From Devosia epidermidihirudinis (GTDB taxonomy: Bacteria > Pseudomonadota > Alphaproteobacteria > Rhizobiales > Devosiaceae): a DNA stretch of 64,000 bases. Shown piece by piece: positions 1-31,703 of the stretch (position 1 is the stretch's first letter; each line of letters opens with the position of its first letter). Under the pieces are notes generated by a model. The model did not search any database. It was not told where the DNA came from and worked only from the letters and a program-made list of their open reading frames with translations. The translations under genes and the position numbers were made by a program. The stretch spans positions 62,001 to 126,000 of the forward strand of contig NZ_LANJ01000001.1 of assembly GCF_000971295.1 (NCBI RefSeq), read 5' to 3'.

Positions 1-724
1 GCATCACCTGAGGCACGATGGCGTAGCGCACGCGCTCCAACCAGTTGGCTCCCACCGACCGCAGCCCCTCTTCGGGCTTCATGTCGGCATTCTCGACCAC
101 TTCAAAGAACAGCTTGCCGAGAGCGCCAATGGTGTGGAGCGAAATGGCGGCAATGGCTGCAATGGGTCCGATGGACAAAACGGCGGTCAACAGACCCGCC
201 ACGACGATTTCGGGGAAGGCGCGCATCACTTCCATGGCGCGGCGCATGAACCAGCGCACGGCACCGGCGCCCACCAGATTGGTCGCCGCAAAGAAGCACA
301 GCAGGAACGCCAGGCCACCGCCGATAATGGTCGAGACGATGGCGATGTTGACCGTTACGGCCAGCTGATAGATGAAATTGGGGATGTAGAGGCTGTCGGT
401 GATGTAGTGCCGATCAGATGTGTAGTCGAATTTCAGCGAGCCATCATAATAGGGCGACTCGATATCGAACATGGCGCGGAAGATCTCGAGCGGATCACGC
501 GGCACGAAGTTCTTGAGGAAATCGAACATATACGGGATGCGCTCGAAGAACTTTCCCGAGTTCGCCGCATTGGCATAATTCATCGCCGCAAGAAGCGCGA
601 TCAGCACCAGCGCCACGCTGATCAGCGAATAGACCCGCCGTGTCATCACCTGACTGCGATAGTGCCGCAGCAGAGTCTGGTTGGCTGGGGAGAGACTATT
701 GGGCGAATGGGCAATATCAGCCAT
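1..724 (-). CDS. phnE: Phosphonate ABC transporter permease PhnE (partial, 3' end outside window)
   Basis: Inner-membrane permease of the PhnCDE phosphonate importer. It reads from an ATG at 724 leftwards with no stop before the window edge, giving about 241 residues of the N-terminal and central part. There is a hydrophobic segment near residues 33-48, a periplasmic stretch with many aromatic residues, then several membrane segments. Near the left edge is the EGLRSVGANWLERVR stretch, the permease coupling loop that contacts the ATPase PhnC. It lies downstream of phnC and phnD on the same strand, separated from phnD by a 333-base gap full of palindromes. The C-terminal membrane helices, and any second permease gene (phnE2, common in rhizobia), would be beyond position 1. 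Confidence 0.93.
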   Translation of the reverse strand, partial: MADIAHSPNSLSPANQTLLRHYRSQVMTRRVYSLISVALVLIALLAAMNYANAANSGKFFERIPYMFDFLKNFVPRDPLEIFRAMFDIESPYYDGSLKFDYTSDRHYITDSLYIPNFIYQLAVTVNIAIVSTIIGGGLAFLLCFFAATNLVGAGAVRWFMRRAMEVMRAFPEIVVAGLLTAVLSIGPIAAIAAISLHTIGALGKLFFEVVENADMKPEEGLRSVGANWLERVRYAIVPQVM

Positions 725-754
725 GGGCAAGGGCTTTCCATACGCTCGGTGTCA

Positions 755-1029
755 CCCCGGCCTTGAGCCGGGGCCCATCCTGAGGTGCTTGAGCGAGTAA
801 GTTGCAAACTCATCCGTTCCTTCGTCATTGCCCGGCTTGTCCGGGCAATCCATTCTTCACCAGCGGCGGTGACATGGATTACCCGGACAAGCCGGGTAAT
901 GACGGTGGCAGGCTACGAATGCGCCAAATCCAAACAGTTCTTCCAAGCAGCAAAGTCAGGGAGGGGGGCGGTTGGCCCGAACATCGGGGCTCTCGCCCCC
1001 TCCCAACCTCCCCCGTCAAGGGGGAGGTG
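755..1029. repeat. phnD-phnE gap: hairpin plus long palindromic repeat
   Basis: The 333-base gap between phnE and phnD (725-1057) has no supported gene. It holds a GC hairpin (755-761 with 767-773) and a long inverted repeat with arms 823-853 and 874-904. The arms match at 29 of 31 bases around a 20-base loop, with cores CCCGGCTTGTCCGGG and CCCGGACAAGCCGGG. A third palindrome, CCTCCCCCGTCAAGGGGGAGG, lies at about 1009-1029. The layout resembles REP/RPE-type intergenic repeats. Lying between the binding-protein gene and the permease gene, the hairpins could lower permease expression or protect phnD mRNA (inference). Confidence 0.75.
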
Positions 1030-1057
1030 CCGCTCTGTGATTGTGGACGGATCCGGC

Positions 1058-1966
1058 TTAGCCGCCGATGATCGACTTACGAGCGTCGATGATGGTCTGG
1101 TACAGGGCCTGACCGGCTGGAACGAAATCGACATAGCCGCCAGCGGTGAAGCTGTCGAAGCACTCGAAATCAGCCTTTGGCAGGCCGACGAAGAACTCGG
1201 TGACCTTGGCCTTGAGTTCTGGCGAGAGCTTGTTGGAAACCATCAGCGGGCCGTTCGGGATGATTGGCGACTGCCAGACTTCAACCAGATCGTCCATGTC
1301 GAGCAGGCCCTTGTCGACCATGATGCGCAGGTTGCCGGAGGTGTAGCCTTCCGAGAATTCACCCTGGCCCGAACCGAACGTGGTGCCGACGTCCCAGGTG
1401 CCGTCGAGGACGCCCAGAACGAGGTTTTCGTGGCCACCGCCGAAACCGGTTTCGCTGTAGAATTCAGCGATTGGCGCGCCGATATCGGTTGGCAGCGCCA
1501 CGTTTGGAACGAGGTAGCCCGAGGTGGAGTCAGGATCGGCAAAGCCGAGCTTCTTGCCCTTGGTCGAAGCCAGATCGGTGATGCCCGAGTCAGCGCGTGC
1601 AACCATGATGGTGTGGTAGCCGGTCGAGCCGTCAGCCTGCTTGGTGGTCAGCACTGGATCAACTGCATTGGGGTCGGCAATGTAAATCTTGGCATAGGAC
1701 GATGCGCCCATGATGGCGATGTCGATGGTGCCGCCGAGCAGACCCTGGATGATGCCGTTATAGTCTGGCGATGGGAAGAACTGGACTTCGGACACGCCTG
1801 TTGCGGCCTTCAGAGGCTCGGCAACGCATTCGGAACGACGGATCTGGTCGGCTTCGTTTTCACCGCCATCAAGGCCGATACGCAGGACATTGGCGTCCTG
1901 AGCAAAAGCAGCGGTCGACATAGTCAGGGCCACAGAGGCCAGCAGGATTTTACGGATCGCGGACAT
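1058..1966 (-). CDS. phnD: Phosphonate ABC transporter substrate-binding protein PhnD
   Basis: Periplasmic receptor that binds phosphonates (and possibly phosphate esters) and hands them to PhnE. It is 302 residues, near the usual family length. A classic signal peptide occupies residues 1-22, with cleavage predicted after AFA. The mature part has the PhnD/TauT-type fold signature, with blocks such as GLLGGTIDIAIMGASSYA, followed by an ADSGITDLASTKGKKLGFAD region that lines the ligand cleft in this family. The ATG at 1966 follows a GGAAG ribosome-binding site. The start is 61 bases after the phnC stop, so the two are co-transcribed. Confidence 0.95.
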   Translation of the reverse strand: MSAIRKILLASVALTMSTAAFAQDANVLRIGLDGGENEADQIRRSECVAEPLKAATGVSEVQFFPSPDYNGIIQGLLGGTIDIAIMGASSYAKIYIADPNAVDPVLTTKQADGSTGYHTIMVARADSGITDLASTKGKKLGFADPDSTSGYLVPNVALPTDIGAPIAEFYSETGFGGGHENLVLGVLDGTWDVGTTFGSGQGEFSEGYTSGNLRIMVDKGLLDMDDLVEVWQSPIIPNGPLMVSNKLSPELKAKVTEFFVGLPKADFECFDSFTAGGYVDFVPAGQALYQTIIDARKSIIGG

Positions 1967-2027
1967 GGATATCTTCCTTTGGTGACGCGGTGTGTCGGCA
2001 TACCGGCTGCCCGGCAGCGGAACTTCG

Positions 2028-2846
2028 TTACGGCGCAGCGGTTGCGCTTGAGGTCTTGATGGCGAGCGGCGCGATGGAGGTTGATGTCATCGCTTCCGAG
2101 AAGGCTTCCTTGAGCCCGTCGGCGCCATAAATCGTGCGGGCCACATCGGTGGTCAGCTCGTCGGGGGTACCGTCAAACACCACCTTGCCCGCCGCCATGC
2201 CCACGATGCGCTCACAGTAAGCGCGCGCGGTATCGAGCGTGTGCAGATTGGTGATGACGGTAATGCCTTCGGCGTTGATGTCGCGCAGGCTGTCCATGAC
2301 GATCTGCGCATTGCGCGGGTCAAGGCTGGCGATCGGCTCATCGGCGAGGATAACTTTGGGCCCCTGCATCAGGGCGCGGGCGATGGCAACGCGCTGCTGC
2401 TGACCACCCGAAAGGGTCTGCGCCCACTGCATCGCGGTTGCCGCGATATCGAGGCGCTCCAGCGCCTTGAGGGCTTCGAGTTGCTCGGCGGGCGAAAACA
2501 CCTGAAGCAGATTGAGAACTGGGTTGCGACCATTGAGGCGACCCAGCATCACATTCGTCAGAACATCGAGGCGCGGCACGAGATTGAATTGCTGGAAGAT
2601 CATGGCGCAATCGCGCTGCCAGCTGCGCAGGTTCTTGCCGCGCAATTCCGACGTCTTGACGCCGTTATATTCGATATGGCCGGATGAGACGTCGGCCAGG
2701 CGGTTGATCATGCGCAGCAGGGTGGATTTTCCGGCGCCCGAGCGACCGATAATACCGACCATCTGGCCCTGCGGAATTTCAAGGTTCACGTCGCTGACGG
2801 CAGTCTTGTCACCGAAGCGTCGCGAAACATGAGAAATCTTGAGCAT
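2028..2846 (-). CDS. phnC: Phosphonate ABC transporter ATP-binding protein PhnC
   Basis: Cytoplasmic ATPase that powers phosphonate import with PhnD and PhnE. The 272-residue protein has a Walker [10 protein letters not shown] (residues 34-42), an LSGGQQQR signature, Walker [14 protein letters not shown], and an H-loop in the VITNLHTLD stretch. The start is placed at the ATG at 2846, three bases inside a possible TTG. It is the first gene of a phnCDE unit. A candidate Pho box lies 68 bases upstream, so phosphate starvation probably drives this unit separately from the phnG-L operon. Confidence 0.95.
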
Positions 2847-2913
2847 CAAGCCGCCCTCGCCGTTGAACTGCGGCAGACCTAGGGCGGGGACATAACGTCA
2901 GCATGTAAGTTTG

Positions 2914-2931
2914 GTGACGGTTGCATGACTA
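2914..2931 (-). promoter_or_regulatory. Candidate Pho box upstream of phnC
   Basis: On the minus strand the bases read TAGTCAT-GCAA-CCGTCAC. Each 7-mer matches the alphaproteobacterial PhoB half-site CTGTCAT at 5 of 7 positions or in its common CTGTCAC form, with the expected 4-base spacer (11-base period). It points toward phnC. A Pho box here fits the known control of phn genes by phosphate starvation. The match is by eye only. Confidence 0.6.
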
Positions 2932-2980
2932 TGCACCGCGCGAGTGTGGTCGGATGTCGCGGCACACACCGAACAGATCC

Positions 2981-3102
2981 CCTCTCCCCTGAGGGGAGAG
3001 GGCTAGGGTGAGGGGTTCAGACGTGGGAGCTTATCCAGATCAGCCGCACCACTGAACCCCTCACCCGCCGCTATGCGGCGACCTCTCCCCTCAGGGGAGA
3101 GG
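2981..3102. repeat. Palindromic intergenic repeat between the acetyltransferase gene and phnC
   Basis: The left arm 2981-3020 starts with the palindrome CCTCTCCCCTGAGGGGAGAGG and continues with a segment ending GGTGAGGGGTTCAG. The right arm 3052-3102 starts CTGAACCCCTCACC and ends with a second copy of the same palindrome. The two arms can pair into one large hairpin. The element sits 4 bases after the acetyltransferase stop codon, so it may also terminate or process the phnG-L transcript. Confidence 0.75.
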
Positions 3103-3105
3103 TGG

Positions 3106-3720
3106 TCAGCCCTCATACTTCTCCAAAAACGCCTCAATCCCGAGCGCCTTGAAATCCGGCAGCGCCTTGTGCAGCCGCTGGTGATCCCAGTCCCACCACG
3201 CCATAGCATCGAGCCTTGACGCCACATCATCGCTGAACCGCTGCTTGATCGTCCGCGCCGGCACACCGACGGCGATGGCAAAATCCGCCACATCCTTGGT
3301 CACCACCGCATTGGAGCCGATGATCGCCCCATTGCCGATTTTCACCCCCGGCATCACCACCGCGCCATGCCCGATCCAGGTGTCATGCCCAATGGTGATG
3401 CCCTGCGATGCACGCCAGTCGAAGAACTCTTCGTCATCCTCTTCGCCCTCGAAATACCAGGCCGAGCGATAGGTGAAATGATGCAGCGACGCCCGCTCCA
3501 TCGGATGCATCGAGGCGTAGATCCGCACATGGCTGGCGATATTGGCGAACTTGCCGATCTCAGCATAGGCGATCTGGGTGTTCTCGACGCAATAAGAGTA
3601 GTCACCCATGCTTGAGCGGGCCACATGGCTGCCCGCCCCCACTTCGGTATAGCGCCCCAGCACCGAGTCAGAGACCTGCGCTGTCGGGTGGATATAGGGC
3701 GTATCGCTCAGTCTGGTCAT
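3106..3720 (-). CDS. Phosphonate-metabolism hexapeptide-repeat acetyltransferase
   Basis: A 204-residue left-handed beta-helix acyltransferase of the XAT/DapH type. It resembles the transferase-hexapeptide proteins that occur inside C-P lyase operons (the phn_thr-fam group). Hexapeptide turns are visible at both ends (VLGRYTEVGAGSHV; later IGHDTWIGHGAVVMPGV and IGNGAIIGSNAVV), with the SMHPMER loop between. Its ATG overlaps the phnL stop in an ATGA, so it is the last gene of the phnG-L operon. By position it may replace PhnO (aminoalkylphosphonate N-acetyltransferase), which has a different fold (GNAT). The substrate is not shown by the sequence. Confidence 0.85.
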   Translation of the reverse strand: MTRLSDTPYIHPTAQVSDSVLGRYTEVGAGSHVARSSMGDYSYCVENTQIAYAEIGKFANIASHVRIYASMHPMERASLHHFTYRSAWYFEGEEDDEEFFDWRASQGITIGHDTWIGHGAVVMPGVKIGNGAIIGSNAVVTKDVADFAIAVGVPARTIKQRFSDDVASRLDAMAWWDWDHQRLHKALPDFKALGIEAFLEKYEG

Positions 3721-4418
3721 GCTGCCACCTTGGGTGCAAATGCGGTGACGTCGACGATGCGGTCGGCCACCTGATTGCGCACATCCTCATCATGGAAAAT
3801 ACCCAGCAGCGCCACGCCCGCCGCCTTCTTCTCGGCGATCATCGCCACCACAACCGCCCGATTGGTCGCGTCGAGCGATGCCGTCGGCTCGTCCAGCAAC
3901 AACACCGGATGATGGGTGATGAACCCGCGCGCGATGTTCACGCGCTGCTGCTCACCGCCCGAAAACGTCGCTGGCGGCAGGCTCCACAGCCGCTCCGGCA
4001 GATTGAGCCGCGCCAGCAGATCGCGTGCGATCCCCTGCGCCTCAGTCTTGTCGACACCCCGGATTACCAGCGGCTCAGCCACCACATCGAGCGCCGACAC
4101 GCGTGGCACCGTGCGCAGGAACTGGCTGACATAGCCAATGCTGTCCCGCCGCAGTGTCAGCACCGTGCGCGGATCAGCCGTGGCGAGGTCGACAATCGCG
4201 CCATGATGCAACAGCTCGATGGCCCCGGCATCAACGCCGTAATTGCCGTAGACCATCTTGAGGATCGAGCTCTTGCCCGCCCCCGATGGTCCACCCAGCA
4301 CAACGCATTCGCCCGGCGCGACGTCGAAATTGACATTGTCCACCACCGGCAGGATCACCCCATCGCGCAGATGCATGGTGAAGGTCTTGGAGAGATTTTT
4401 GACGGAAAGAGCGGTCAT
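3717..4418 (-). CDS. phnL: C-P lyase complex ABC-type ATPase PhnL
   Basis: ABC-family ATPase associated with the C-P lyase core, needed for forming alpha-D-ribose 1-methylphosphonate 5-triphosphate or for complex cycling. It is not a transport component. It has 233 residues, with Walker A GPSGAGKSS near residues 42-50, signature FSGGEQQR and Walker B VLLLDEPTASLD. The PhnL hallmarks VSQFLRTVPRVSALDVV and GIFHDEDVRN are clear. The ATG at 4418 has an AGGTG site 5 bases upstream. A GTG at 4424 overlapping the phnK stop is less likely. Confidence 0.95.
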   Translation of the reverse strand: MTALSVKNLSKTFTMHLRDGVILPVVDNVNFDVAPGECVVLGGPSGAGKSSILKMVYGNYGVDAGAIELLHHGAIVDLATADPRTVLTLRRDSIGYVSQFLRTVPRVSALDVVAEPLVIRGVDKTEAQGIARDLLARLNLPERLWSLPPATFSGGEQQRVNIARGFITHHPVLLLDEPTASLDATNRAVVVAMIAEKKAAGVALLGIFHDEDVRNQVADRIVDVTAFAPKVAA

Positions 4419-4420
4419 AA

Positions 4421-5194
4421 TCACACCTGCAAAATCGAGCTGACCAGCAGCTGCGTATAGGGTTCGCGCGGATCGTCGAGCACGCGGTCGGTGAGGCCTG
4501 CCTCGATGACGCGGCCGTCCTTCATCACCATCATGCGGTGGCTGAGCAGACGGGCCACGGCGAGATCGTGCGTCACGACGATGGCCGCCAGCCCCAACTC
4601 ACCCACCAGCCCGCGCAACAGATCGAGCAGACGCGCCTGCACCGACACGTCGAGACCGCCGGTTGGCTCATCCATGAACACCAGCCGTGGGCCAGTCACG
4701 AGATTGCGCGCAATCTGCAGGCGCTGGCGCATGCCGCCCGAGAACGAGCGCGGCTGATCGTCGACGCGGTCCGCCGCAATCTCCACCCGACCGAGCCAGT
4801 CGAGCGCAGTTTCGCGAATATGGCCGTAATTTCGATCGCCCACCGCCATCAGTCGCTCGCCGACATTGGCGCCGGCCGACACCGTCATGCGCAGCCCGTC
4901 CGCCGGGTTCTGGTGCACAAAGCCCCAGTCCGTCCGCACGAGAAAGCGTCGTTCGGCTTCGCTCAGCTCATAGATATTGCGCCATTGTTCGTCGCGCATG
5001 CGGTAGAGCGTCCGGCCCGAGCTGGGTTCCAGCGTGGCTGACAGGGAGTTCAGCAACGTCGTCTTGCCCGAACCGGATTCCCCCACAATGGCCAGCACTT
5101 CGCCGGGCCAAAGCTCGAAATTCACATCCGCACAGCCAAGTCGGCTGCCGTAATATTTGGTCAGGTTCTCAACGCGGAGAAGGGGTTCAGTCAT
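4421..5194 (-). CDS. phnK: C-P lyase complex ABC-type ATPase PhnK
   Basis: ABC-family ATPase that docks on the PhnGHIJ core of C-P lyase and resembles the ATPases of peptide importers. It has 257 residues, with Walker A GESGSGKTT (38-46), signature FSGGMRQR and Walker B LVFMDEPTGGLD. An AGGAG site lies 7 bases before the ATG. It is separated from phnJ by a 258-base gap of repeats, so the strict spacing of the operon is broken here. The gene continues directly into phnL. Confidence 0.95.
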   Translation of the reverse strand: MTEPLLRVENLTKYYGSRLGCADVNFELWPGEVLAIVGESGSGKTTLLNSLSATLEPSSGRTLYRMRDEQWRNIYELSEAERRFLVRTDWGFVHQNPADGLRMTVSAGANVGERLMAVGDRNYGHIRETALDWLGRVEIAADRVDDQPRSFSGGMRQRLQIARNLVTGPRLVFMDEPTGGLDVSVQARLLDLLRGLVGELGLAAIVVTHDLAVARLLSHRMMVMKDGRVIEAGLTDRVLDDPREPYTQLLVSSILQV

Positions 5195-5217
5195 TGGTGA
5201 TCTCCTGGGCCTTGAGA

Positions 5218-5303
5218 GACCTCATGGTGAGCTTGTCGAACCACGAGGTCGGGAACGCCGATCCTGCCACGCCCTCGTCCTTCGACGGGCTCAGGATGAG
5301 GTC
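5218..5303. repeat. Palindromic repeat, family A copy 1 (phnJ-phnK gap)
   Basis: The inverted arms are 5218-5250 (GACCTCATGGTGAGCTTG onward) and 5271-5303 (ending GGCTCAGGATGAGGTC). They can pair along their whole length with a few mismatches. A second copy with nearly the same bases and orientation lies at 6497-6587. It resembles a common alphaproteobacterial intergenic repeat. Confidence 0.8.
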
Positions 5304-5320
5304 TACTGAGAAGCGAGCGG

Positions 5321-5468
5321 TCATTCCGCCGCCTCCAAACCCAGTCACACCGTCCCGGCAATCCATGCGATCTCCCGGCCTCCCATGGACCACCGGGACC
5401 GGCCCGGTGGTGACGAAAGAGCGGCGCGTATTGTGTGTTTGAAAACGGCTCATCATTCCGCCGCCTCC
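5321..5468. repeat. Palindromic insert flanked by a 16-base direct repeat at the phnJ 3' end
   Basis: The 16-mer TCATTCCGCCGCCTCC occurs at 5321-5336 and again at 5453-5468. The second copy is the true end of phnJ (codons GGAA side to stop, encoding EAAE-stop on the minus strand); the first is a detached duplicate. Between them lies an imperfect palindrome (5351-5417). Its right arm resembles the repeat at 823-904 in layout (TTCGTCA..CCGGG..CCGG..TCCATG). This looks like a repeat element inserted with duplication of the phnJ tail, or a slipped duplication. Confidence 0.6.
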
Positions 5469-6331
5469 TGAGGTGTACCCAACACCCCAACATGCCCGGC
5501 TTCACGCCGTTCTTCGCAATTGTCGGTGTCCGAGCAGACATACATATGCCCGCCCCGGTCATCCAAAATGACCTCGTCGAGATAGACCTGTTCGGCGCCA
5601 CAGAGCGCGCAGGGCTCCTCGAAGTGCTGGATCTCGAAGGGATGATCCTCGAAATCCAGGCTCACCACTTCGGTATGCGGAGGCACGGCATAGATGCGGT
5701 GCTCACGCCCTGCTCCGAACAGTTGCAGCGCTTCGCTCATATGCATTTTGGGATTGTCGAACTTTGGCGTCGGGCTAGGGTCCATCACATAACGACCCTC
5801 GACCTTGACCGGATAGGCATAGGTCGTGGCGATGCGGCCATGGCGCGCAATGTCCTCATAGAGCTTGACGTGCATCAGCCCATATTCCTCGAGCGCATGC
5901 ATTTTGCGCGTCTCGGTTTCGCGCGGCTCGAGGAAACGCAGCGGCTCGGGGATCGGCACCTGATAGACAAGGATCTGCCCCCGCCCCAGCGGCTTTTCCG
6001 GAATGCGGTGGCGGGTCTGGATGATCGTCGCGTCCGCCGTGTGCGTGGTGGTTTCCACCTGCGCGACCTTGGCGAAGAACGCCCGGATGCTGACCGCATT
6101 GGTCGTGTCGTCAGCGCCCTGATCGATCACTTTGAGCACGTCCTGCGGCCCGATAATCGACGCCGTCACCTGCACCCCGCCCGTGCCCCAGCCGTAAGGC
6201 ATCGGCATTTCGCGGGACGAAAACGGCACCTGATATCCGGGGATGGCGATGGCCTTGAGAATAGCCCGCCGGATCATCCGCTTGGTCTGCTCATCAAGAT
6301 AGGCAAAGTTATATTGGGCGACGGCGTTCAT
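5453..6331 (-). CDS. phnJ: C-P lyase catalytic subunit PhnJ (radical SAM)
   Basis: Alpha-D-ribose 1-methylphosphonate 5-phosphate C-P lyase, the S-adenosylmethionine-dependent radical enzyme that cleaves the carbon-phosphorus bond and releases methane from methylphosphonate. With the start at the ATG at 6331 the protein has 292 residues. Its key residues then fall on the E. coli numbers: the glycyl radical site G32 in IPGYQ, and the 4Fe-4S/thiyl cysteines C241, C244, C266 and C272 in the unusual CX2CX21CX5C motif. An AAGGAG site lies 9 bases before this ATG; a GTG at 6340 is therefore not used. Repeat-filled gaps flank the gene on both sides. Confidence 0.97.
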   Translation of the reverse strand: MNAVAQYNFAYLDEQTKRMIRRAILKAIAIPGYQVPFSSREMPMPYGWGTGGVQVTASIIGPQDVLKVIDQGADDTTNAVSIRAFFAKVAQVETTTHTADATIIQTRHRIPEKPLGRGQILVYQVPIPEPLRFLEPRETETRKMHALEEYGLMHVKLYEDIARHGRIATTYAYPVKVEGRYVMDPSPTPKFDNPKMHMSEALQLFGAGREHRIYAVPPHTEVVSLDFEDHPFEIQHFEEPCALCGAEQVYLDEVILDDRGGHMYVCSDTDNCEERREAGHVGVLGTPQEAAE

Positions 6332-6353
6332 TCTGCGCACTCCTTGCTTTCTT

Positions 6354-6479
6354 CACCTCTCCCTTTGGGGGAGAGGTCGACCGTCTTCGGGCGGGTGAGG
6401 GGGCCTTTTCTGGATGCGGTGCGAGGGGAAGGCCCCCTCACCCGGCCTGCAGCCGGCCTCTCCCCCAAAGGGAGAGGTG
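6354..6479. repeat. Palindromic intergenic repeat upstream of phnJ
   Basis: The left arm 6354-6410 begins CACCTCTCCCTTTGGGGGAG and the right arm 6427-6479 ends CTCCCCCAAAGGGAGAGGTG. The inner parts pair GGGTGAGGGGGCCTT with AAGGCCCCCTCACCC. It forms a very large potential hairpin just 23 bases before the phnJ start codon. It resembles the 2981-3102 element in plan but has different end palindromes. Confidence 0.75.
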
Positions 6480-6496
6480 GAGTGGTGTTCCCCAAA

Positions 6497-6587
6497 GACC
6501 TCATGGTGAGCCTGTCGAACCACGAGGTCGGGTGAGTGGAGGGTGGCGTGCCACGCCCTCGTCCTTCGACGAGCTCAGGATGAGGTC
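6497..6587. repeat. Palindromic repeat, family A copy 2 (phnI-phnJ gap)
   Basis: The arms are 6497-6529 and 6555-6587, nearly identical to the copy at 5218-5303 (for example CCTCATGGTGAGC and CTCAGGATGAGGTCTACTG are shared). It starts 21 bases downstream of the phnI stop codon. Two copies of one repeat within 1.3 kb flank phnJ in direct orientation and could support deletion or duplication of phnJ by recombination (inference). Confidence 0.8.
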
Positions 6588-6608
6588 TACTGTGAGAAAA
6601 ACTTGCCC

Positions 6609-7706
6609 TCACTCCGCCGCCTCCTTCACTGCCACCGCTTCATGTTCCGCCCGCATGCGCCGGATCAGGTCCAGCTCGGCCTGGAAGTCCACATAGTGCG
6701 GCAGCTTGAGGTGCTCGACGAAGCCCGTCGCCTGCACGTTGTCGGAGTGGGAAATGACGAATTCCTCGTCCTGCGCCGGGGCGGTGATGTCTTCACCGAA
6801 CTCCTTGGCGCGCAGCGCCCGATCGACCAGTGACATGGCCATTGCCTTGCGCTCGGCCTGACCGAACACCAATCCGTAGCCGCGGGTAAACTGCGGTGGC
6901 ACCTTGGCCGATCCCTTGAACTGGTTGACCATCTGGCATTCGGTGACGCGAATGCGGCCCAGGTTCACGGCAAAGCCCAGCTCGGGCACGTCGAACTCCA
7001 CCGCGACTTCACCGATACGAATTTCGCCAACGAAGGGGTGGCTGCGGCCATAGCCGCGCTGGGTCGAATAGCCCAGCGCCAACAGGAACCCTTCATCGCC
7101 ACGCGCCAGCGCCTGCAGGCGTAGGTCGCGGTCGAGCGGGAAGTCCAGCGGCTCACGCGTCAAATCTCCGACTTCGCGGTCTTCCGTTGGATCGGCCGTG
7201 CCGAAATCAGGCTCGATCAGCCCTTCATGCGCCAGCAGATCGGTGACGCGTGGAGAACGGCTTGGCTCTTCACTCCGCGTGATCGGCTCGGGCACGTCGC
7301 CCGACACAATCGAGGGATCGAGCAGGCGGTGCGTATAGTCGAAGGTTGGCCCCAGCATCTGCCCGCCGGGCAGGTCCTTGAACGTCGCCGAAATGCGACG
7401 CTCGATCAGCATTTCGCCCGTTTCAACCGGGTGCGAATAGCCAAAGCGCGGCAGCGTCGTGCGATAGGCGCGGACGAGAAAGATCGCCTCGATCAAGTCG
7501 CCCCGCGCCTGCACCAGCGCCAGCGCGGCCAGTTCCTTGTCATAGAGCGAGCCTTCGCCCATGGCGCGATCAACCGCCAGGCCGAGCTGCTCGACGATCT
7601 GGTCGATGCGCAGCGCCGGCACCGAGCGATCGCCACGGCGACGATCGGCGAGCAAGGCATGGGCATTGGCAATGGCGGCTTCACCGCCCTTTACAGCTAC
7701 ATACAT
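6609..7706 (-). CDS. phnI: C-P lyase core subunit PhnI
   Basis: Core subunit of the PhnGHIJ complex. Known PhnI is a purine nucleosidase that, with PhnG and PhnH, transfers phosphonate to the ribose of ATP, releasing adenine. The start is set at the ATG at 7706 because the protein then begins MYVAVKGGEAAIANAHAL, the conserved PhnI N-terminus. It has 365 residues, the usual length. Further family blocks are SLYDKELAALALVQARGD and DEEFVISHSDNVQATGF. The phnH stop lies one base upstream, so translation is coupled. Confidence 0.96.
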   Translation of the reverse strand: MYVAVKGGEAAIANAHALLADRRRGDRSVPALRIDQIVEQLGLAVDRAMGEGSLYDKELAALALVQARGDLIEAIFLVRAYRTTLPRFGYSHPVETGEMLIERRISATFKDLPGGQMLGPTFDYTHRLLDPSIVSGDVPEPITRSEEPSRSPRVTDLLAHEGLIEPDFGTADPTEDREVGDLTREPLDFPLDRDLRLQALARGDEGFLLALGYSTQRGYGRSHPFVGEIRIGEVAVEFDVPELGFAVNLGRIRVTECQMVNQFKGSAKVPPQFTRGYGLVFGQAERKAMAMSLVDRALRAKEFGEDITAPAQDEEFVISHSDNVQATGFVEHLKLPHYVDFQAELDLIRRMRAEHEAVAVKEAAE

Positions 7707-7707
7707 C

Positions 7708-8304
7708 TCAGTGTCCTTCCGCAATCCGCGTCGTGCGCGGCAGGCCGAGCACTGCGCCATCGGCAACCAGCAGCAGATCGATCCCACGCGGGAACAGCTC
7801 GCGATTGTCGGCCCATTGCCCGATGAAATCCTCGGGCAGACCCAGAGGGCTAATATGGCCGTGATCCCTGATCCCCGGACCACGCGTGATCAGCTCATCA
7901 CCGCCGCTCAACGCGGGCACGGCCAGCACGATGGTGGTGGAACGATCGGGATATTCCTGCGTGCCCAGATTGAACTGGCCCAGCTCAGGCAGTTCGGCAG
8001 CACTGGTCGCAAAAGCCAACATGGCCCGTGCGGGTTCACGCACAATCGGCGCGCCGGTGTGGAAGGCCACAAAGGCTTCGACATCACTATGGCGCAGAGA
8101 GTCCGACAGCCAAATCGGGCTGTCCTGATCGCACAACGTTAACAGTGTGCTAACCAACTCGGCGGTCAGGGCACCATGTGCTAACGCCGATTTGGTGAAA
8201 TTCTGGACGGTTCCGGGATTGGCCAGAGCGTCCATGATGGTGCGGAAACCCGCCTGCGATTGCAGCACGGGGTCGGCAAAACCGCCTTCAAGACCGATAT
8301 CCAT
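7708..8304 (-). CDS. phnH: C-P lyase core subunit PhnH
   Basis: Core subunit of C-P lyase, a homodimer at the centre of the PhnGHIJ complex, needed for formation of ribose 1-phosphonate triphosphate. It has 198 residues from the ATG at 8304, starting MDIGLEGGFADPVLQSQ. This matches the family start, in which the phrase F(R)xIMDALANPG follows near residue 25. The phnG stop is 2 bases upstream and phnI begins 1 base downstream, so the three genes are tightly coupled. Confidence 0.95.
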   Translation of the reverse strand: MDIGLEGGFADPVLQSQAGFRTIMDALANPGTVQNFTKSALAHGALTAELVSTLLTLCDQDSPIWLSDSLRHSDVEAFVAFHTGAPIVREPARAMLAFATSAAELPELGQFNLGTQEYPDRSTTIVLAVPALSGGDELITRGPGIRDHGHISPLGLPEDFIGQWADNRELFPRGIDLLLVADGAVLGLPRTTRIAEGH

Positions 8305-8306
8305 GT

Positions 8307-8762
8307 TCAGTTGTCTCCCCGGACCATGGTGAAGAAGTCGACCTTGGTGGCCGCTGCCTCGTCGCGCAGTTTCTGGTCTGCCTTGACCGCAAGTGTCCGC
8401 AATGGTTGGATAATTTCGGCTTCGACCGATGCCGCATCGCGCTGCCACAAGGCATCGATCACGGCGATGATCTCGGCCTTGCCCAGATCGCGGCCCAGGC
8501 AATACCCGTGCCCCACTTCCCCGGTTACAATGCGCACGCTGGCGCGGCTGACACTGGCTTCACCCAGATTGAACGCCGCCCCGCCGCCACCGGCGCGACC
8601 GCGCACCATGACCAGCCCCACTTCGGGGCCACGCACCTTGGTATGCTCGGGCTTGTCGGCCCAGGCGTCCCACAGAGCGGCCAGCGCCAGCGTGGGCGCA
8701 GCGGCCAGAGCGTCGAGCGCCGCCTTTCTGGCCGAATTATCGATGGACGATGCTGTTTGCAT
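8307..8762 (-). CDS. phnG: C-P lyase core subunit PhnG
   Basis: First gene of the phnGHIJKL operon. PhnG is the small subunit that joins PhnI in the core complex. It has 151 residues, with the conserved GLVMVRGRAGGGGAAFNLGE segment in the middle and the GEVGHGYCLGRD segment that follows. The start ATG at 8762 is 12 bases downstream of the PhnF operator on the transcribed strand, and a Pho box lies behind that. The gene therefore has short-range control from both phosphate state and PhnF. Confidence 0.94.
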   Translation of the reverse strand: MQTASSIDNSARKAALDALAAAPTLALAALWDAWADKPEHTKVRGPEVGLVMVRGRAGGGGAAFNLGEASVSRASVRIVTGEVGHGYCLGRDLGKAEIIAVIDALWQRDAASVEAEIIQPLRTLAVKADQKLRDEAAATKVDFFTMVRGDN

Positions 8763-8774
8763 GCTTGCCTCAAT

Positions 8775-8794
8775 TTGTCTAATACACTAGACAA
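8775..8794. promoter_or_regulatory. PhnF operator (inverted repeat) in the phnF-phnG gap
   Basis: TTGTCTA-ATACAC-TAGACAA is a perfect 7-base inverted repeat with a 6-base spacer. It lies 12 bases from the phnG start codon and 44 from phnF. Inverted repeats of this kind are typical for GntR/HutC-family repressors, and PhnF is the divergent neighbour. Binding here would block phnG-L and possibly phnF. This is inferred from position and symmetry. Confidence 0.75.
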
Positions 8795-8827
8795 CTACTG
8801 TCCTGAATCCGGTCCTACGCTCCCTGT

Positions 8828-8845
8828 GTGAAAATGCAATGACAG
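8828..8845 (-). promoter_or_regulatory. Candidate Pho box of the phnG-L operon
   Basis: On the minus strand the bases read CTGTCAT-TGCA-TTTTCAC. The first half-site is a perfect CTGTCAT, the second matches 5 of 7 of CTGTCAC, and the spacer is 4 bases. It points toward phnG and overlaps the phnF start codon, so activation of phnG-L by PhoB could interfere with phnF expression (inference). Confidence 0.65.
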
Positions 8846-9564
8846 TCGCAAAAGATGATCTGGGTGGCGTCGCGCTCTGGCGCCGGATTGCTGATGCCAT
8901 CCGCCTCGACATTGTCGGCGGCAAGCTCGCCACGGGTGATCGCCTGCCCACCGAAGCCGTTCTGGCAGAACGCTTTTCTGCCAATCGCCACACCGTGCGC
9001 CGCGCTCTCGCCGTGTTGTCGGATGAAGGCGTGGTGGGCGCCGAACAAGGTCGCGGCACCTTTGTGCGCAGCGCCAAACGGCTGAGTTACCCCATTGGCA
9101 AACGCACGAGATTCACCGAGGGCCTCGCCGGGCAAGCCAATACAATTTCAAGCCGAACGCTTAGCAGCCGACTCGAAAACGCCAGCGCGGTTGTCGCCAA
9201 GGCGCTGGGCCTCAAGACGGGTTCCAAGGTGATCCGCAACGACAGCGTCTCACTGGCCGACGGCGTGCCGCTGTCGCGAGCGACCACCTGGTTGCCCTAT
9301 CGCCGCTTCCCCGATTTTGTTGATCGCATCGCGCAATTGCACCGCATGACGGCGGTGTTCGCCAGCTATGGCATCGCCGACTACGCCCGCGCCTCAACCC
9401 GCATTTCCGCCCGCCACGCCGATGTGGAAGAGACCAAACTGCTGGGCCTGTCGCCGGGAGCAATCCTTTTGGTGTCGGAGTCGGTCGACGTCGATAGCGC
9501 AGGCGAACCAATATCTTACGCGCTGAGCCGCTTTCCGGCTGAGCGGATGGAGCTGGTGGTTTAA
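8839..9564 (+). CDS. phnF: Phosphonate metabolism transcriptional regulator PhnF (GntR/HutC family)
   Basis: Repressor of the phn genes. It has 241 residues: an N-terminal winged helix-turn-helix (about residues 10-75, with LPTEAVLAERFSANRHTVRRAL as its core) and a C-terminal UTRA ligand-binding domain (about 95-235). It is divergent from phnG and shares a 76-base control region containing an inverted-repeat operator. No Shine-Dalgarno sequence is evident before the ATG at 8839, and an earlier ATG at 8834 is closed by a stop at once, so translation may be weak. It converges on phnN across a palindromic repeat. Confidence 0.92.
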   Translation: MTVAKDDLGGVALWRRIADAIRLDIVGGKLATGDRLPTEAVLAERFSANRHTVRRALAVLSDEGVVGAEQGRGTFVRSAKRLSYPIGKRTRFTEGLAGQANTISSRTLSSRLENASAVVAKALGLKTGSKVIRNDSVSLADGVPLSRATTWLPYRRFPDFVDRIAQLHRMTAVFASYGIADYARASTRISARHADVEETKLLGLSPGAILLVSESVDVDSAGEPISYALSRFPAERMELVV

Positions 9565-9570
9565 AGAGGA

Positions 9571-9686
9571 TACCCCCACCTAGCCTCCCCCTGATAGGGG
9601 GAGGAATCTGGCTGGTGAGTTTGACGAGATCTCCCCCAAAACTGAGTCTGTCCCTCCCCCTATCAGGGGGAGGCTAGGAGGGGGTA
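9571..9686. repeat. Palindromic repeat between convergent phnF and phnN
   Basis: The left arm 9571-9604 (TACCCCCACCTAGCCTCCCC onward) pairs with the right arm 9653-9686, which ends AGGCTAGGAGGGGGTA. Each arm also contains a small palindrome, CCCCCTGATAGGGGG or CCCCCTATCAGGGGG. Set between convergent genes, it could act as a bidirectional transcription stop, although neither side has a strong T-run. Confidence 0.7.
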
Positions 9687-9700
9687 CTCCGATCCCACAA

Positions 9701-10264
9701 TCAAACCCGCTCGACCAGCCCAGCCGCATCCTGCAACAACCGCACAAACTGCGTCCCGGCCACTTCAAGCGACCCGGAATTATCGATCCGTACCGTGCTC
9801 GTCGGCAGCCGATCCACCACACTGCGCGACAGGCGCAACTGGATCGAATCTGCCGTCTCCCGCCCGCGATTGGCCAGCCGCTTGGCGATGACTTCGATGT
9901 CGGCCGTCACCGCCACGACCACTGCATTGGGATATCGCTGCAGCAGCCCCGGGATTTGGGCGCGCGACAAATTGGCCACCACCACCCTGCCCGCCGCCAG
10001 ATCATTTTCCAGCCCGATCGGCAGACCATAGCGCAAGCCATGGGCATCCCAACTCAGCGCAAAAGCGCCGTCACGCTCTGCCGCCGCGAAGGCAATTGTG
10101 TCCATGCTATCATGATCTTCGCTGCCGCCATCGGCGGCGCGGGTCACCACGCGGCGCACGAAGACGACGCGGCCAGAAGCTTCGAGCCGGTCCCGAGCAA
10201 AGCCGATCAAACTGTCCTTGCCGGCCCCGCTAGGGCCGACAACGGCGACGAATGTTCCGCTCAT
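9701..10264 (-). CDS. phnN: Ribose 1,5-bisphosphate phosphokinase PhnN
   Basis: Converts ribose 1,5-bisphosphate from phosphonate breakdown to PRPP. It has 187 residues from the ATG at 10264, which overlaps the phnM stop in ATGA. An earlier ATG would run into phnM. It has a guanylate-kinase-like P-loop, GPSGAGKDS, near residues 10-18. An RVVTRAA segment follows in the nucleotide/acceptor region, then the FALSWDAHGLRYGLP block typical of PhnN. It is co-transcribed with phnM. Confidence 0.93.
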   Translation of the reverse strand: MSGTFVAVVGPSGAGKDSLIGFARDRLEASGRVVFVRRVVTRAADGGSEDHDSMDTIAFAAAERDGAFALSWDAHGLRYGLPIGLENDLAAGRVVVANLSRAQIPGLLQRYPNAVVVAVTADIEVIAKRLANRGRETADSIQLRLSRSVVDRLPTSTVRIDNSGSLEVAGTQFVRLLQDAAGLVERV

Positions 10265-11409
10265 ATGACGCGGCGGCCCTGACGCCATACGGTCAGCACG
10301 ATTGGGATACCGTCTTCGACGCGCACATGCACAAAGTCCGCGCGCTTGCCGATGGCGATCTCGCCACGGTCGTTGAAACCACCAGCTTCTGCCGGGCGCT
10401 TGGTGACCAGCTGGATCGCCTTGGCGAGGCTGTAGCCATCGACCGTTTCGGTCAGCGAAAACGCCGATTGCAGCATCGAGAACGGGATATAGTCGGACGA
10501 CAGAATATCGAGCAGATCGGCCTCGGCCAGCGCCCGCGCCGACACATTGCCCGAATGCGACCCACCGCGCACAACGTTCGGCCCGCCCATCAAAATGGCC
10601 ATACCGGCCTGGCGCGATGCCTTGGCCGCCTCAACGGTCGTGGGGAACTCTGCGACGTCAATGCCCAGGGCTTCCGCCTCTTCCACATGTGCGCGCGTCG
10701 CGTCGTCGTGGCTGGCGAGCACAATGCCGAGATCCTTGCAGGCATCAGCAATCGCCCGGCGATAGGGGCCCGCATAGGCCTGAGACTCGGCGTTACGGCG
10801 CTGCGAGAACTCCTCCAGTGCGGCATCGCTCATCTTGAGCTTGCCCTGATAGTAGATCTTGTAGGCGTCCATGTTGGCGAACTGACGCTGGCCGGGGGCG
10901 TGGTCCATCAGCGAGGCAAGCCGCACCTGAGGATCGTTCTTGATGGCCATGAAGGATTCAAGGCAATCGGGCGCAGACACTTCACAGCGCAGGTGTATGT
11001 GGTGCTCGGCACGCAGGCGACCGGCCTTGCTGCCCGCCGCAATCGCGTCGGCCAGAATGCGCATTTCGGTCGCGCCCATATCGGCATGTTCGTCGAGCCC
11101 GACGCGGATGGCGTCCAGCACCGTGGTGATGCCCGACGCCGCGATCTGCGCGTCATGGGCCTGAACGGCCGCAACCGGGTTCCAGCGAACCTTGGGGCGC
11201 GGGGCATAGTGGGTTTCGAGGTGATCTGTGTGCAGCTCGACAAGGCCGGGGATCAGGTAATCGCCATCCAGATCAACACCCGTGCGGCTAGGCGTGCCGA
11301 TATCGGTGATCATGCCGCCATCGACGCGAACCGAGCCCTCCAGCACCTCATTGGCCAAAACAATCTTGGCATTGGTGAGGACGAGGTCTCCGAGGGCAAC
11401 GGTGTTCAT
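10261..11409 (-). CDS. phnM: Alpha-D-ribose 1-methylphosphonate 5-triphosphate diphosphatase PhnM
   Basis: Amidohydrolase-superfamily enzyme that removes pyrophosphate from the ribose 1-alkylphosphonate 5-triphosphate, giving the substrate of PhnJ. It has 382 residues. The metal-binding start of the barrel is visible as HTDHLETH (H60, H63, H67), with a later DHAPGQRQF block, a SHDDAT block and GGPNVVRGGSHSGN near the C-terminal third. The ATG at 11409 has only a weak ribosome-binding site. phnM and phnN form a unit apart from phnG-L, transcribed toward phnF. Confidence 0.95.
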   Translation of the reverse strand: MNTVALGDLVLTNAKIVLANEVLEGSVRVDGGMITDIGTPSRTGVDLDGDYLIPGLVELHTDHLETHYAPRPKVRWNPVAAVQAHDAQIAASGITTVLDAIRVGLDEHADMGATEMRILADAIAAGSKAGRLRAEHHIHLRCEVSAPDCLESFMAIKNDPQVRLASLMDHAPGQRQFANMDAYKIYYQGKLKMSDAALEEFSQRRNAESQAYAGPYRRAIADACKDLGIVLASHDDATRAHVEEAEALGIDVAEFPTTVEAAKASRQAGMAILMGGPNVVRGGSHSGNVSARALAEADLLDILSSDYIPFSMLQSAFSLTETVDGYSLAKAIQLVTKRPAEAGGFNDRGEIAIGKRADFVHVRVEDGIPIVLTVWRQGRRVI

Positions 11410-11459
11410 GAGAGAGGCCGATCTAGCAAAGTGTGGGCTGAAACTGTTTGCCCTGCGCT

Positions 11460-11477
11460 AGACCAGTTTCGTGACAT
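11460..11477 (-). promoter_or_regulatory. Weak candidate Pho box upstream of phnM
   Basis: On the minus strand the bases read ATGTCAC-GAAA-CTGGTCT, 51 bases before phnM. The first half matches the PhoB half-site at 5 of 7 positions and the second is poor. The spacing of 4 bases is right. GGTCTAG also resembles half of the PhnF operator. Low confidence. Confidence 0.3.
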
Positions 11478-11506
11478 TCTGGCGACGAGTCGAGCCCGAA
11501 CGAAAA

Positions 11507-11531
11507 CGACCCGCGAAATGATCGCGGGTCG
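11507..11531 (-). terminator. Rho-independent terminator of the MFS gene
   Basis: A 10-base stem CGACCCGCGA / TCGCGGGTCG with a 5-base loop sits 9 bases past the stop of the minus-strand MFS gene and is followed on that strand by TTTTCG. Confidence 0.75.
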
Positions 11532-11540
11532 CAGTTCAAA

Positions 11541-12764
11541 TCAGGCTGCCTTGAGCTTCTGGCGGCGCCCCTTGCCGATATCAGGCAGGAAGATCGTCAA
11601 CAGGCCCAGCAGCGGCAGGTAGGAGCAGATCTGGTAGACGAACTCGATGCTCGTATGGTCGGCGACAATGCCCAGCACTGCCGCGCCAATGCCGCCGATA
11701 CCGAAGGCGAAACCAAAGAACAGCCCGGCAATCATGCCAACGCGACCCGGCACCAGTTCCTGCGCAAACACCACGATCGCCGAGAAAGCCGAGGCCAGGA
11801 TCACGCCAATGATGAAGGTCAGCACAATGGTCCAGGTGTAATCGGCATAAGGCAGCGCCAGCGTGAAGGGCAGCGCGCCGAGGATCGACAGCCAGATCAC
11901 GAACTTGGTGCCAAACCAGTCCACCACCGGACCGCCAGCGACCGTACCGATGGCCACCGCCCCCAGGAACACGAATAGCAGAATTTGAGCGTCCTGCACC
12001 GACACGTCGAACCGGTCGATCATGTAGAATGTGTAGTAGCTCGAAAGGCTCGACATATAGATATATTTCGAGAACACCAGCAGTGCGAGAACCGTGATGG
12101 CCTTGATGACCGTGGCACGCGGGAAGGTCACTGCGGCGGCCGCAGCTATGCGGGACGCATTGGCGACGCGGTGACGATTATACCAGTTGCCGACCTGCCA
12201 AAGAATGACCATGCCCAGCAGCGCCGCCGCCGAGAACCAGGCAACGCTTTCCTGACCGCGCGGCAACACGATGAACGCGGCCAGCAGCGGACCAATGGCT
12301 GAGCCGAAATTGCCGCCCACCTGAAACAGCGACTGCGCCAGACCATGTCGTCCGCCCGACGCCAACCGCGCCACGCGCGAGGATTCCGGATGGAACACCG
12401 CCGAGCCCAGCCCCACCACACCAGCGCCAACCAGCAACATCCAGTAGGAATGCGCATAGGCCAGGATGAGGAGGCCGATCAGCGTGCAGCCCATGCCCAC
12501 AGACAGCGAATAGGGCAGCGGGCGCTTGTCGGTATAGATGCCGATCAGCGGCTGCAGCAGCGATGCGGTGACCTGAAAGACTAATCCAAGAAAACCGATC
12601 TGGGTGAAGTCCAGCCCATAACCTTCCTTGATCATCGGATAGAGCGCGGGAATAAGCGACTGCATGGTGTCGTTGAGAAGATGGCAGAAACTTACCGCCA
12701 TGATCACGGCAAAGGCCGTTTGTTCCGCTGATTGCCGTTCTTCGGCCACTGCACTGTTCGTCAC
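11541..12764 (-). CDS. MFS transporter, fosmidomycin-resistance (Fsr) type
   Basis: Twelve-helix major facilitator efflux protein, 407 residues. It has the Fsr-family look: the start AEQTAFAVIMAVSFCHLLND, then a PALYPMIKEGYGLDF segment and the GSAVFHPESSRVAR motif, with a second half from about residue 215. The GTG at 12764 is chosen because a GGAG lies 7 bases before it and because the longer frame would overlap the divergent AraC gene. Known members export fosmidomycin or related phosphonate-like or toxic compounds. The natural substrate here is not known. It is divergent from an AraC regulator 81 bases away, its likely controller. Confidence 0.88.
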   Translation of the reverse strand: MTNSAVAEERQSAEQTAFAVIMAVSFCHLLNDTMQSLIPALYPMIKEGYGLDFTQIGFLGLVFQVTASLLQPLIGIYTDKRPLPYSLSVGMGCTLIGLLILAYAHSYWMLLVGAGVVGLGSAVFHPESSRVARLASGGRHGLAQSLFQVGGNFGSAIGPLLAAFIVLPRGQESVAWFSAAALLGMVILWQVGNWYNRHRVANASRIAAAAAVTFPRATVIKAITVLALLVFSKYIYMSSLSSYYTFYMIDRFDVSVQDAQILLFVFLGAVAIGTVAGGPVVDWFGTKFVIWLSILGALPFTLALPYADYTWTIVLTFIIGVILASAFSAIVVFAQELVPGRVGMIAGLFFGFAFGIGGIGAAVLGIVADHTSIEFVYQICSYLPLLGLLTIFLPDIGKGRRQKLKAA

Positions 12765-31653: not shown

Positions 31654-31703
31654 AATATGTAGGATATAATGTCTACATGAAAGCCAGATATATCCTACAT
31701 ATT
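31654..31703. promoter_or_regulatory. Operator cluster upstream of the alpha-galactoside transporter genes
   Basis: AATATGTAGGATATA (31654-31668) is repeated as the exact inverse TATATCCTACATATT at 31689-31703, with 20 bases between. A third half-site CTACAT at 31673-31678 forms another inverted pair with ATGTAG at 31657. The sites lie 63-112 bases before the binding-protein start. They are candidate binding sites for the GntR regulator of this operon. Confidence 0.65.

Follow-up and report, generated by a model that had tools for sequence, protein, structure and literature searches.

Why are the gaps between the carbon–phosphorus (C–P) lyase genes of Devosia epidermidihirudinis occupied by large palindromes? 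The phn locus in question lies in a 64,000-nucleotide stretch of DNA (hereafter the window; positions 62001–126000 of contig NZ_LANJ01000001.1) from a 3.86-Mb genome in 47 contigs. The genes run in the order D, C, acetyltransferase (Ac), L, K, J, I, H and G on the minus strand, F on the plus strand, and N and M on the minus strand. The original prediction reported large inverted repeats in the phn gaps, and de novo detectors and a consensus scanner recover them in the places that it gave, with none in shuffled sequence. Our comparison makes it likely that these repeats are ordinary elements of the repetitive extragenic palindrome (REP) type that turn up again and again at certain operon junctions in Devosia, and that the filling of a junction exchanges a coupled stop–start for a hairpin followed by an independent start.

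Palindromic elements in the window

De novo detection finds inverted repeats at 823–904, 2976–3107, 5217–5304, 6351–6482, 6496–6588 and 9571–9686, four of which are recovered by a stricter detector. First-order Markov shuffles contain no such palindrome in 220 kb and none in 340 kb. The elements fall into a CGTC-tagged family and three families designated F2, F3 and F4.

750–777, plus strand: TGTC-tagged REP singleton in the phnD–phnE gap, found by the consensus scanner and unlisted in the original prediction
823–904, strand not applicable: CGTC-REP dimer of two units in inverted orientation, found by the de novo detectors and the consensus scanner
Near 993–1030, about 30 nt past the phnD stop: half-element CCTCCCCC...GGGGGAGG, seen by eye and likewise unlisted
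2976–3107, strand not applicable: F2 element between the acetyltransferase gene and phnC
5217–5304, strand not applicable: F3 element (AGACCTCATGGTGAGC...GCTCAGGATGAGGTCT) in the phnJ–phnK gap
5323–5338, minus strand: exact 16-bp copy of the 3' end of phnJ with its overlapping start module, reading GGAGGCGGCGGAATGA; the original is at 5453–5468
5346–5415, minus strand: CGTC-REP heterodimer with unit one intact (5415–5386) and unit two short by 15 bp relative to locus L182
6351–6482, strand not applicable: F2 element in the phnI–phnJ gap, with a related element at the same spot in L182
6496–6588, strand not applicable: F3 element in the phnI–phnJ gap, 20 nt past the phnI stop
9571–9686, strand not applicable: F4 element with the ends TACCCCC...GGGGGTA, in the gap where phnF and phnN converge

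Both units of the 823–904 dimer consist of CGTC, a 9-bp stem, a 5-nt loop and CCA, with the tags outermost, and the 750–777 unit has an 8-bp stem with one mismatch, a 5-nt loop and a CCA tail. The feature predicted at 5351–5417 is borne out as the minus-strand CGTC-REP unit at 5415–5386 together with a partner that is shorter than its counterpart in the sister species (L182). The F2 signature is CCTCTCCC..GGGAGAGG with an inner GGTGAGGGG, and the F2 element at 2976–3107 has CCTCTCCCCTGAGGGGAGAGG at either end and a GGGTGAGGGG hairpin inside. The F3 signature is AGACCTCAT..ATGAGGTCT, and the two F3 copies of the window are 90% identical to each other. The 16-bp copy of the phnJ end sits in the J–K gap, with the CGTC pair on one side and the F3 element on the other.

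Which class do these elements represent? An unpaired CGTC or TGTC tag stands at one end of four units in the window (750, 823, 904 and 5415), all of which have a 5-nt loop, a stem of 8 or 9 bp and, in four of four, a CCA tail; the consensus scanner admits loops of 4–6 nt and the tails CCA, CCC, CCT and TCA. The stem opens with a paired AT in both 823–904 units and with AC in the 750 and 5415 units. According to Di Nocera et al. 2013 (PMC3733652), the CGTC-REPs of alpha-proteobacteria have a stem of 8–9 bp, a loop of 4–5 nt and a tail that is mostly CCA, begin their stems "almost invariably" with a paired AT and occur mostly as HH dimers. The 823–904, 5415 and 750 units fit this description in tag, stem, loop and CCA tail, save for the AC stem starts in two of them. 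Dimers occur here too, and the 823–904 pair is inverted with its tags outermost. Also in common are the genome-wide distribution, the location in gaps of unidirectional or convergent genes and the lack of a dedicated transposase. The sections of that paper that were compared mention neither Devosia nor unrelated families that recur at one operon junction. Within the window, no element of F2, F3 or F4 contains a unit with a CGTC tag, 8–9-bp stem and CCA tail by the scanner, and these three families stand outside the CGTC-REP signature.

Filled and closed junctions of the phn operon in Devosia

PhnJ is present in 54 of 75 Devosia genomes and occurs in two types. The type close to that of the window is found in 44 relatives, from which 40 phn regions were taken (G031, at a contig edge, G038, G062 and G063 were left out). 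One of these regions, L219, was dropped for its 75–76% PhnJ and different gene order, and the counts below cover 39 relatives plus the window, 40 genomes in all. L199 (at I–J) and L208 (at K–L) were excluded for frameshifts from the fill and change, Shine–Dalgarno, junction-copy and arm-distance counts and were retained in the strict-palindrome occupancy counts. These apparent frameshifts lie in phnI of G029 (L199) and phnK of G060 (L208), where an early in-frame stop is followed by homology that runs on into the gap.

The phn gene order is common to most Devosia loci compared, and three junctions within it have two-valued lengths. The I–J junction measures either −1 or 58–322 bp, J–K either −1 to 14 or 82–258 bp, and K–L either 1–2 or 81–206 bp. 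I–J is filled in 20/39 genomes, J–K in 21/40 and K–L in 21/39, as is the convergent N–F gap in 18/37. Other junctions are never filled: G–H and H–I measure −10 to 3 bp in 40 genomes each, L–Ac −4 or −1 in 34 genomes and M–N −4 to 14 bp in 38 genomes, and C–D has no excess of 50 bp or more in 33 genomes. The D–E gap varies, with an excess of at least 50 bp in 20/32 (measured to the open reading frame (ORF) antisense to phnE), and Ac–C is always long (at least 129 bp), with palindromes in 16/27. Strict palindromes occupy I–J in 15/40, J–K in 17/40 and K–L in 11/40, compared with 19/413 same-strand gaps in a sample of the window's own genome. The K–L junction of the window is itself closed (2 bp), and K–L was thus not chosen for being filled.

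The repeats that fill a junction differ from species to species. I–J is filled by F2, CGTC, F4 or F3 elements, J–K by all four families, and K–L by F4, F2 and one CGTC-like element. In the close set L188, L190 and L192, I–J carries an F2 element, is closed, and carries a CGTC element, respectively. On a protein tree, the minimum number of presence changes is 13 for I–J, 8 for J–K, 12 for K–L and 8 for N–F, and the minimum number of identity changes is 19, 18, 15 and 13, respectively. L182, the nearest relative by path, resembles the window in having an F2 element at I–J and the CGTC pair at J–K; it lacks both F3 copies and has a filled K–L.

Starts and predicted hairpins at filled junctions

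How is the downstream gene started at a filled junction? Where I–J and J–K are closed, the sequence is GGAGGCGGCGGAATGA: the stop of the first gene overlaps the start of the next, whose Shine–Dalgarno sequence lies inside the upstream gene. At filled junctions, the palindrome lies a median of 24 (I–J), 23 (J–K) or 35 nt (K–L) past the stop, and a Shine–Dalgarno match of at least 4 nt stands directly ahead of the downstream start in 59/62 cases, compared with 32–39% at random insert positions. RNA folding against shuffles gives the I–J insert a z of −8.9 (0/200 as good) and the J–K insert a z of −2.8 (1/200).

These features suggest the following reading. REP-type palindromes dispersed through the genome would settle where translational coupling is dispensable, and junctions would be gained and lost by insertion and deletion of elements. 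In a filled junction, the overlapping, coupled stop–start would be replaced by a transcribed hairpin and then an independent start. The G–H, H–I, L–Ac, M–N and C–D junctions may be kept closed by selection for co-expression of partners, and I–J, J–K and K–L may tolerate or favor insertion. The RNA hairpins could affect mRNA ends or decouple translation. They may also tune the ratio of Phn subunits, as the original prediction suggested. According to PMC9947105, the core complex is made up of PhnG, H, I and J, and PhnK and PhnL dock on it as ATPases. The tight G–H–I arrangement fits a need for matched supply, yet the core subunit J is separated, and any such rule is a guess.

Intercistronic REPs of Escherichia coli offer a comparison: as predicted for Devosia, they form hairpins in polycistronic transcripts past stop codons, and a translational effect is reported for those within 15 nt of the stop (PMC12306157). 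The Devosia inserts differ in that the first arm lies within this range in only 6/57, so ribosome stalling of the E. coli type would not apply to most of them.

This distance is one of several points that weigh against the reading of recurrent filling with replacement of the coupled start. No inverted repeat is detected in three of the filled I–J gaps (L191, L193 and L203). The family labels of the fillings were assigned by hand, the protein tree is a quick one in which 14/37 inner branches have less than 80% support, and the junction counts share ancestry. Outside phn, the obg–proB junction, picked because it is filled in the window's own genome, is filled in 18/30 closest relatives by F2, F3 and F4, with 11 strict palindromes. 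Since obg–proB behaves alike, nothing specific to phn is needed. For yraN–gshB, another junction that carries an insert in the own genome, only 6/25 relatives have a filled gap (one strict). In other genera (75 loci, from the best 80 of 593, five of the 80 being Devosia), strict palindromes are few, at 5/74 for J–K and 6/73 for K–L, and belong to other repeat families.

Among these loci from the best 80 of 593, strict palindromes are absent from I–J (0/75), G–H and H–I, and a small gene often opens I–J instead. In Mesorhizobium and some other genera, a small ORF lies in the phnI–phnJ junction (1645–2061 of L377), and similar I–J gaps are present in L346, L352, L378, L379, L382, L408, L410 and L412. 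The product in L377, the one case translated, looks by eye like a glyoxalase/VOC-type protein. The obg–proB junction in Devosia (L280–L309) alternates between 5 bp and 60–250 bp of palindromic repeats from several families.

Distribution of the elements in the genome and in other operons

Is the phn locus special within its own genome? With up to three mismatches, the CGTC core has 63 matches in the genome, the near-palindromic F2 core at least 124 strand matches (both strands counted), the F3 core 60 matches and the near-palindromic F4 core 44 strand matches (both strands counted); reversed-pattern controls of the four cores have none in the genome. Merged within 150 bp, the four families form at least 188 sites across the 3.86-Mb genome. 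The phn locus has five sites in 9 kb, windows on contigs C13 and C40 likewise have five, and uniform scatter of the sites gives five or more in a 9-kb window in 297/2000 runs. The phn cluster is therefore unexceptional within this genome taken alone. The original prediction saw none of the elements in the remaining 54 kb, and this holds for the four core patterns, which match the window solely between 827 and 9675 (at most three mismatches). The absence is unremarkable since about three palindromes are predicted there from the sampled rate of 36 per 660 kb, and confinement to phn fails at the scale of the genome. One strong inverted repeat lies outside phn in the window, at 31654–31703, and is not of these families.

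The placement of palindromes was assessed in a systematic 660-kb sample of the own genome with a crude gene caller, in which a few palindromes are probably terminators. De novo palindromes occupy 19/413 same-strand, 14/109 convergent and 0/92 divergent gaps, and 33/36 palindromes of any family are located in same-strand or convergent gaps, with three inside genes or at their edges. This gap placement matches that reported for REPs (PMC3733652) and is thus a REP-like distribution.

Across the genus, by contrast with the own genome, the phn locus is enriched. One detector gives all density figures: 76 palindromes in 381 kb of phn from 40 genomes (1.99 per 10 kb), 22 in 309 kb of flanks of the same loci (0.71 per 10 kb) and 36 in the 660-kb own-genome sample (0.55 per 10 kb). 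The control operons contain 0 palindromes in 251 kb (paralogous phn, 0.00), two in 184 kb (urease, 0.11) and two in 373 kb (nuo, 0.05). The phn density is 2.8 times that of the flanks, 3.7 times that of the own-genome sample and 40 times that of the three control operons, ratios whose p-values take no account of relatedness. The claim that phn collects such elements is accordingly sustained across the genus and not within the own genome, and phn is a rich example, not a unique one.

The paralogous control is a second phn operon (L220–L239) present in many Devosia genomes, with a PhnJ about 48% identical and 0 palindromes in 20 regions. These 20 regions were taken from carriers of the second PhnJ type, leaving out G045, two partial matches and the copy in G059 at 52%. 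Urease gaps also grow (50/112 same-strand cells have an excess of at least 50 bp). This growth is hardly palindromic, with two palindromes in 184 kb, and was not counted as repeat filling.

Alternative explanations for the filled junctions

A neutral origin, to which we give a little less than an even chance, is one alternative: elements would insert past stops wherever they are harmless, and phn, being dispensable and weakly constrained, would accumulate them without function. The genome-wide dispersal of the families, the rapid turnover between close species, the decayed CGTC partner in the window and the unexceptional cluster of the own genome are all consistent with it. However, the accessory paralogous phn operon has 0 palindromes in 251 kb (20 genomes) and urease two in 184 kb, and G–H and H–I, closed with equal geometry, were never found filled. 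The Shine–Dalgarno match at 59/62 starts is likewise unexplained by insertion alone, and selection on the downstream gene could account for it.

Could the hairpins be selected as insulators? Devosia would then repeatedly recruit any palindrome and split the operon into the expression modules G–H–I, J, K and L–Ac, a proposal that we judge somewhat unlikely. The use of the same junctions by differing families, the cold junctions within the same transcript and the Shine–Dalgarno match that filled gaps carry argue for it, as does a weak likeness, at a given junction, between families in the 24 nt ahead of the start (mean 0.353 compared with 0.324 when permuted, 0/200). Nevertheless, roughly half of the genomes have no filling, sister species differ, and obg–proB has the same pattern. 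In a bolder form, which we regard as unlikely, phnI–J, J–K and K–L would be docking junctions at which any palindrome family is recruited and swapped and the hairpin splits the transcript, amounting to a sequence-independent, convergent insulator made from selfish repeats.

Intrinsic terminators or attenuators would likewise place strong hairpins past stop codons. This explanation is very unlikely: in a scan restricted to loops of 3–8 and requiring a T run, 0 of 8 terminator-like sites in 1–12000 overlap the palindromes, where 8.4 sites are expected by chance, and termination would cut the operon short before its downstream genes. A repeat-rich donor as the source of phn, raised by the original prediction, draws on nothing beyond the local cluster and is extremely improbable, given that the families lie all over a host genome that is itself repeat-rich, that the G+C content of phn is typical (0.622 compared with 0.609 for the genome; standard deviation of 10-kb pieces, 0.014) and that the gene order recurs in relatives.

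Comparison with known mobile repeats

REPINs and their RAYT transposases (PMC3116915 and PMC2817692) resemble the Devosia elements in that they comprise short, inverted pairs of palindromes in many extragenic copies. The CGTC, F2, F3 and F4 cores are of other sequence, and a RAYT-driven REPIN was rejected because the own genome has no Y1_Tnp protein; a Y1_Tnp transposase is present in 3/61 genus genomes. No GTAG tag of the REPIN/RAYT kind was noticed in the four cores, although no scan was aimed at GTAG. The elements do have terminal inverted repeats, as would a miniature inverted-repeat transposable element of a DDE transposon. This candidate was rejected for want of a target-site duplication: direct flanks of 3–8 bp are found at 0 copies in the own genome (26 of F1, 9 of F2, 15 of F3 and 23 of F4), and 2-bp flank matches are at about chance level. 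F2-type elements in some relatives (CCCCTCATCCGGC...CCTTCTCCCC) may resemble the repeat known as the rhizobial intergenic mosaic element (RIME). An intrastrand-triplex reading of F2 and F4 (PMC4666352) was set aside. Rfam at its gathering score identifies two tRNAs only in the window and no described structured RNA at the elements.

Two local features were also considered. The 16-bp junction duplication is not a general insertion scar, since among filled junctions it is found only at J–K of the window; elsewhere, the longest match equals the control level, with a match of 17 in one control pair. Conserved flanks that would mark a fixed landing pad were rejected as well, the signal being weak and strongest at K–L ahead of the start.

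Significance of closed and filled alleles

Literature searches on Devosia palindromes, on palindromes in C–P lyase or phn loci and on REPs at orthologous operon gaps did not find this pattern, with most subscription journals outside their coverage, nor did one on REPs, stop codons and ribosome stalling. Natural closed and filled alleles of one junction, with varied repeats and beside junctions that are always closed, open what looked like a local peculiarity to a comparative test. The alleles allow a direct test of whether the REP-type repeats of operons are passengers or useful parts. If the hairpins act, selfish repeats would have been co-opted for their structure and not for their sequence, and junctions would differ sharply in tolerance. 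If the hairpins are inert, the closed junctions would nonetheless point to the places in C–P lyase where translational coupling seems important.

Gene layout of the phn locus

The phn genes of the window were named with NCBIfam and Pfam profiles, and N and M partly from position.

1058–1966, minus strand: phnD (TIGR03431)
2028–2849, minus strand: phnC (TIGR02315)
3106–3720, minus strand: Ac, phn-associated hexapeptide acetyltransferase-like gene (TIGR03308)
3717–4418, minus strand: phnL (TIGR02324, scanned from the ORF 3717–4424)
4421–5194, minus strand: phnK (TIGR02323)
5453–6328, minus strand: phnJ (PF06007)
6609–7706, minus strand: phnI (PF05861)
7708–8304, minus strand: phnH (TIGR03292)
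8307–8762, minus strand: phnG (TIGR03293)
8839–9564, plus strand: phnF, regulator gene (TIGR02325)
9701–10264, minus strand: phnN, named from position and length, without a Pfam match and conserved beside phnM
10261–11409, minus strand: phnM, amidohydrolase (PF07969 and PF01979), the name taken from operon position

A long plus-strand ORF at 134–766 of the window, antisense to phnE, recurs in relatives by tblastn and is probably a mere shadow of phnE coding.

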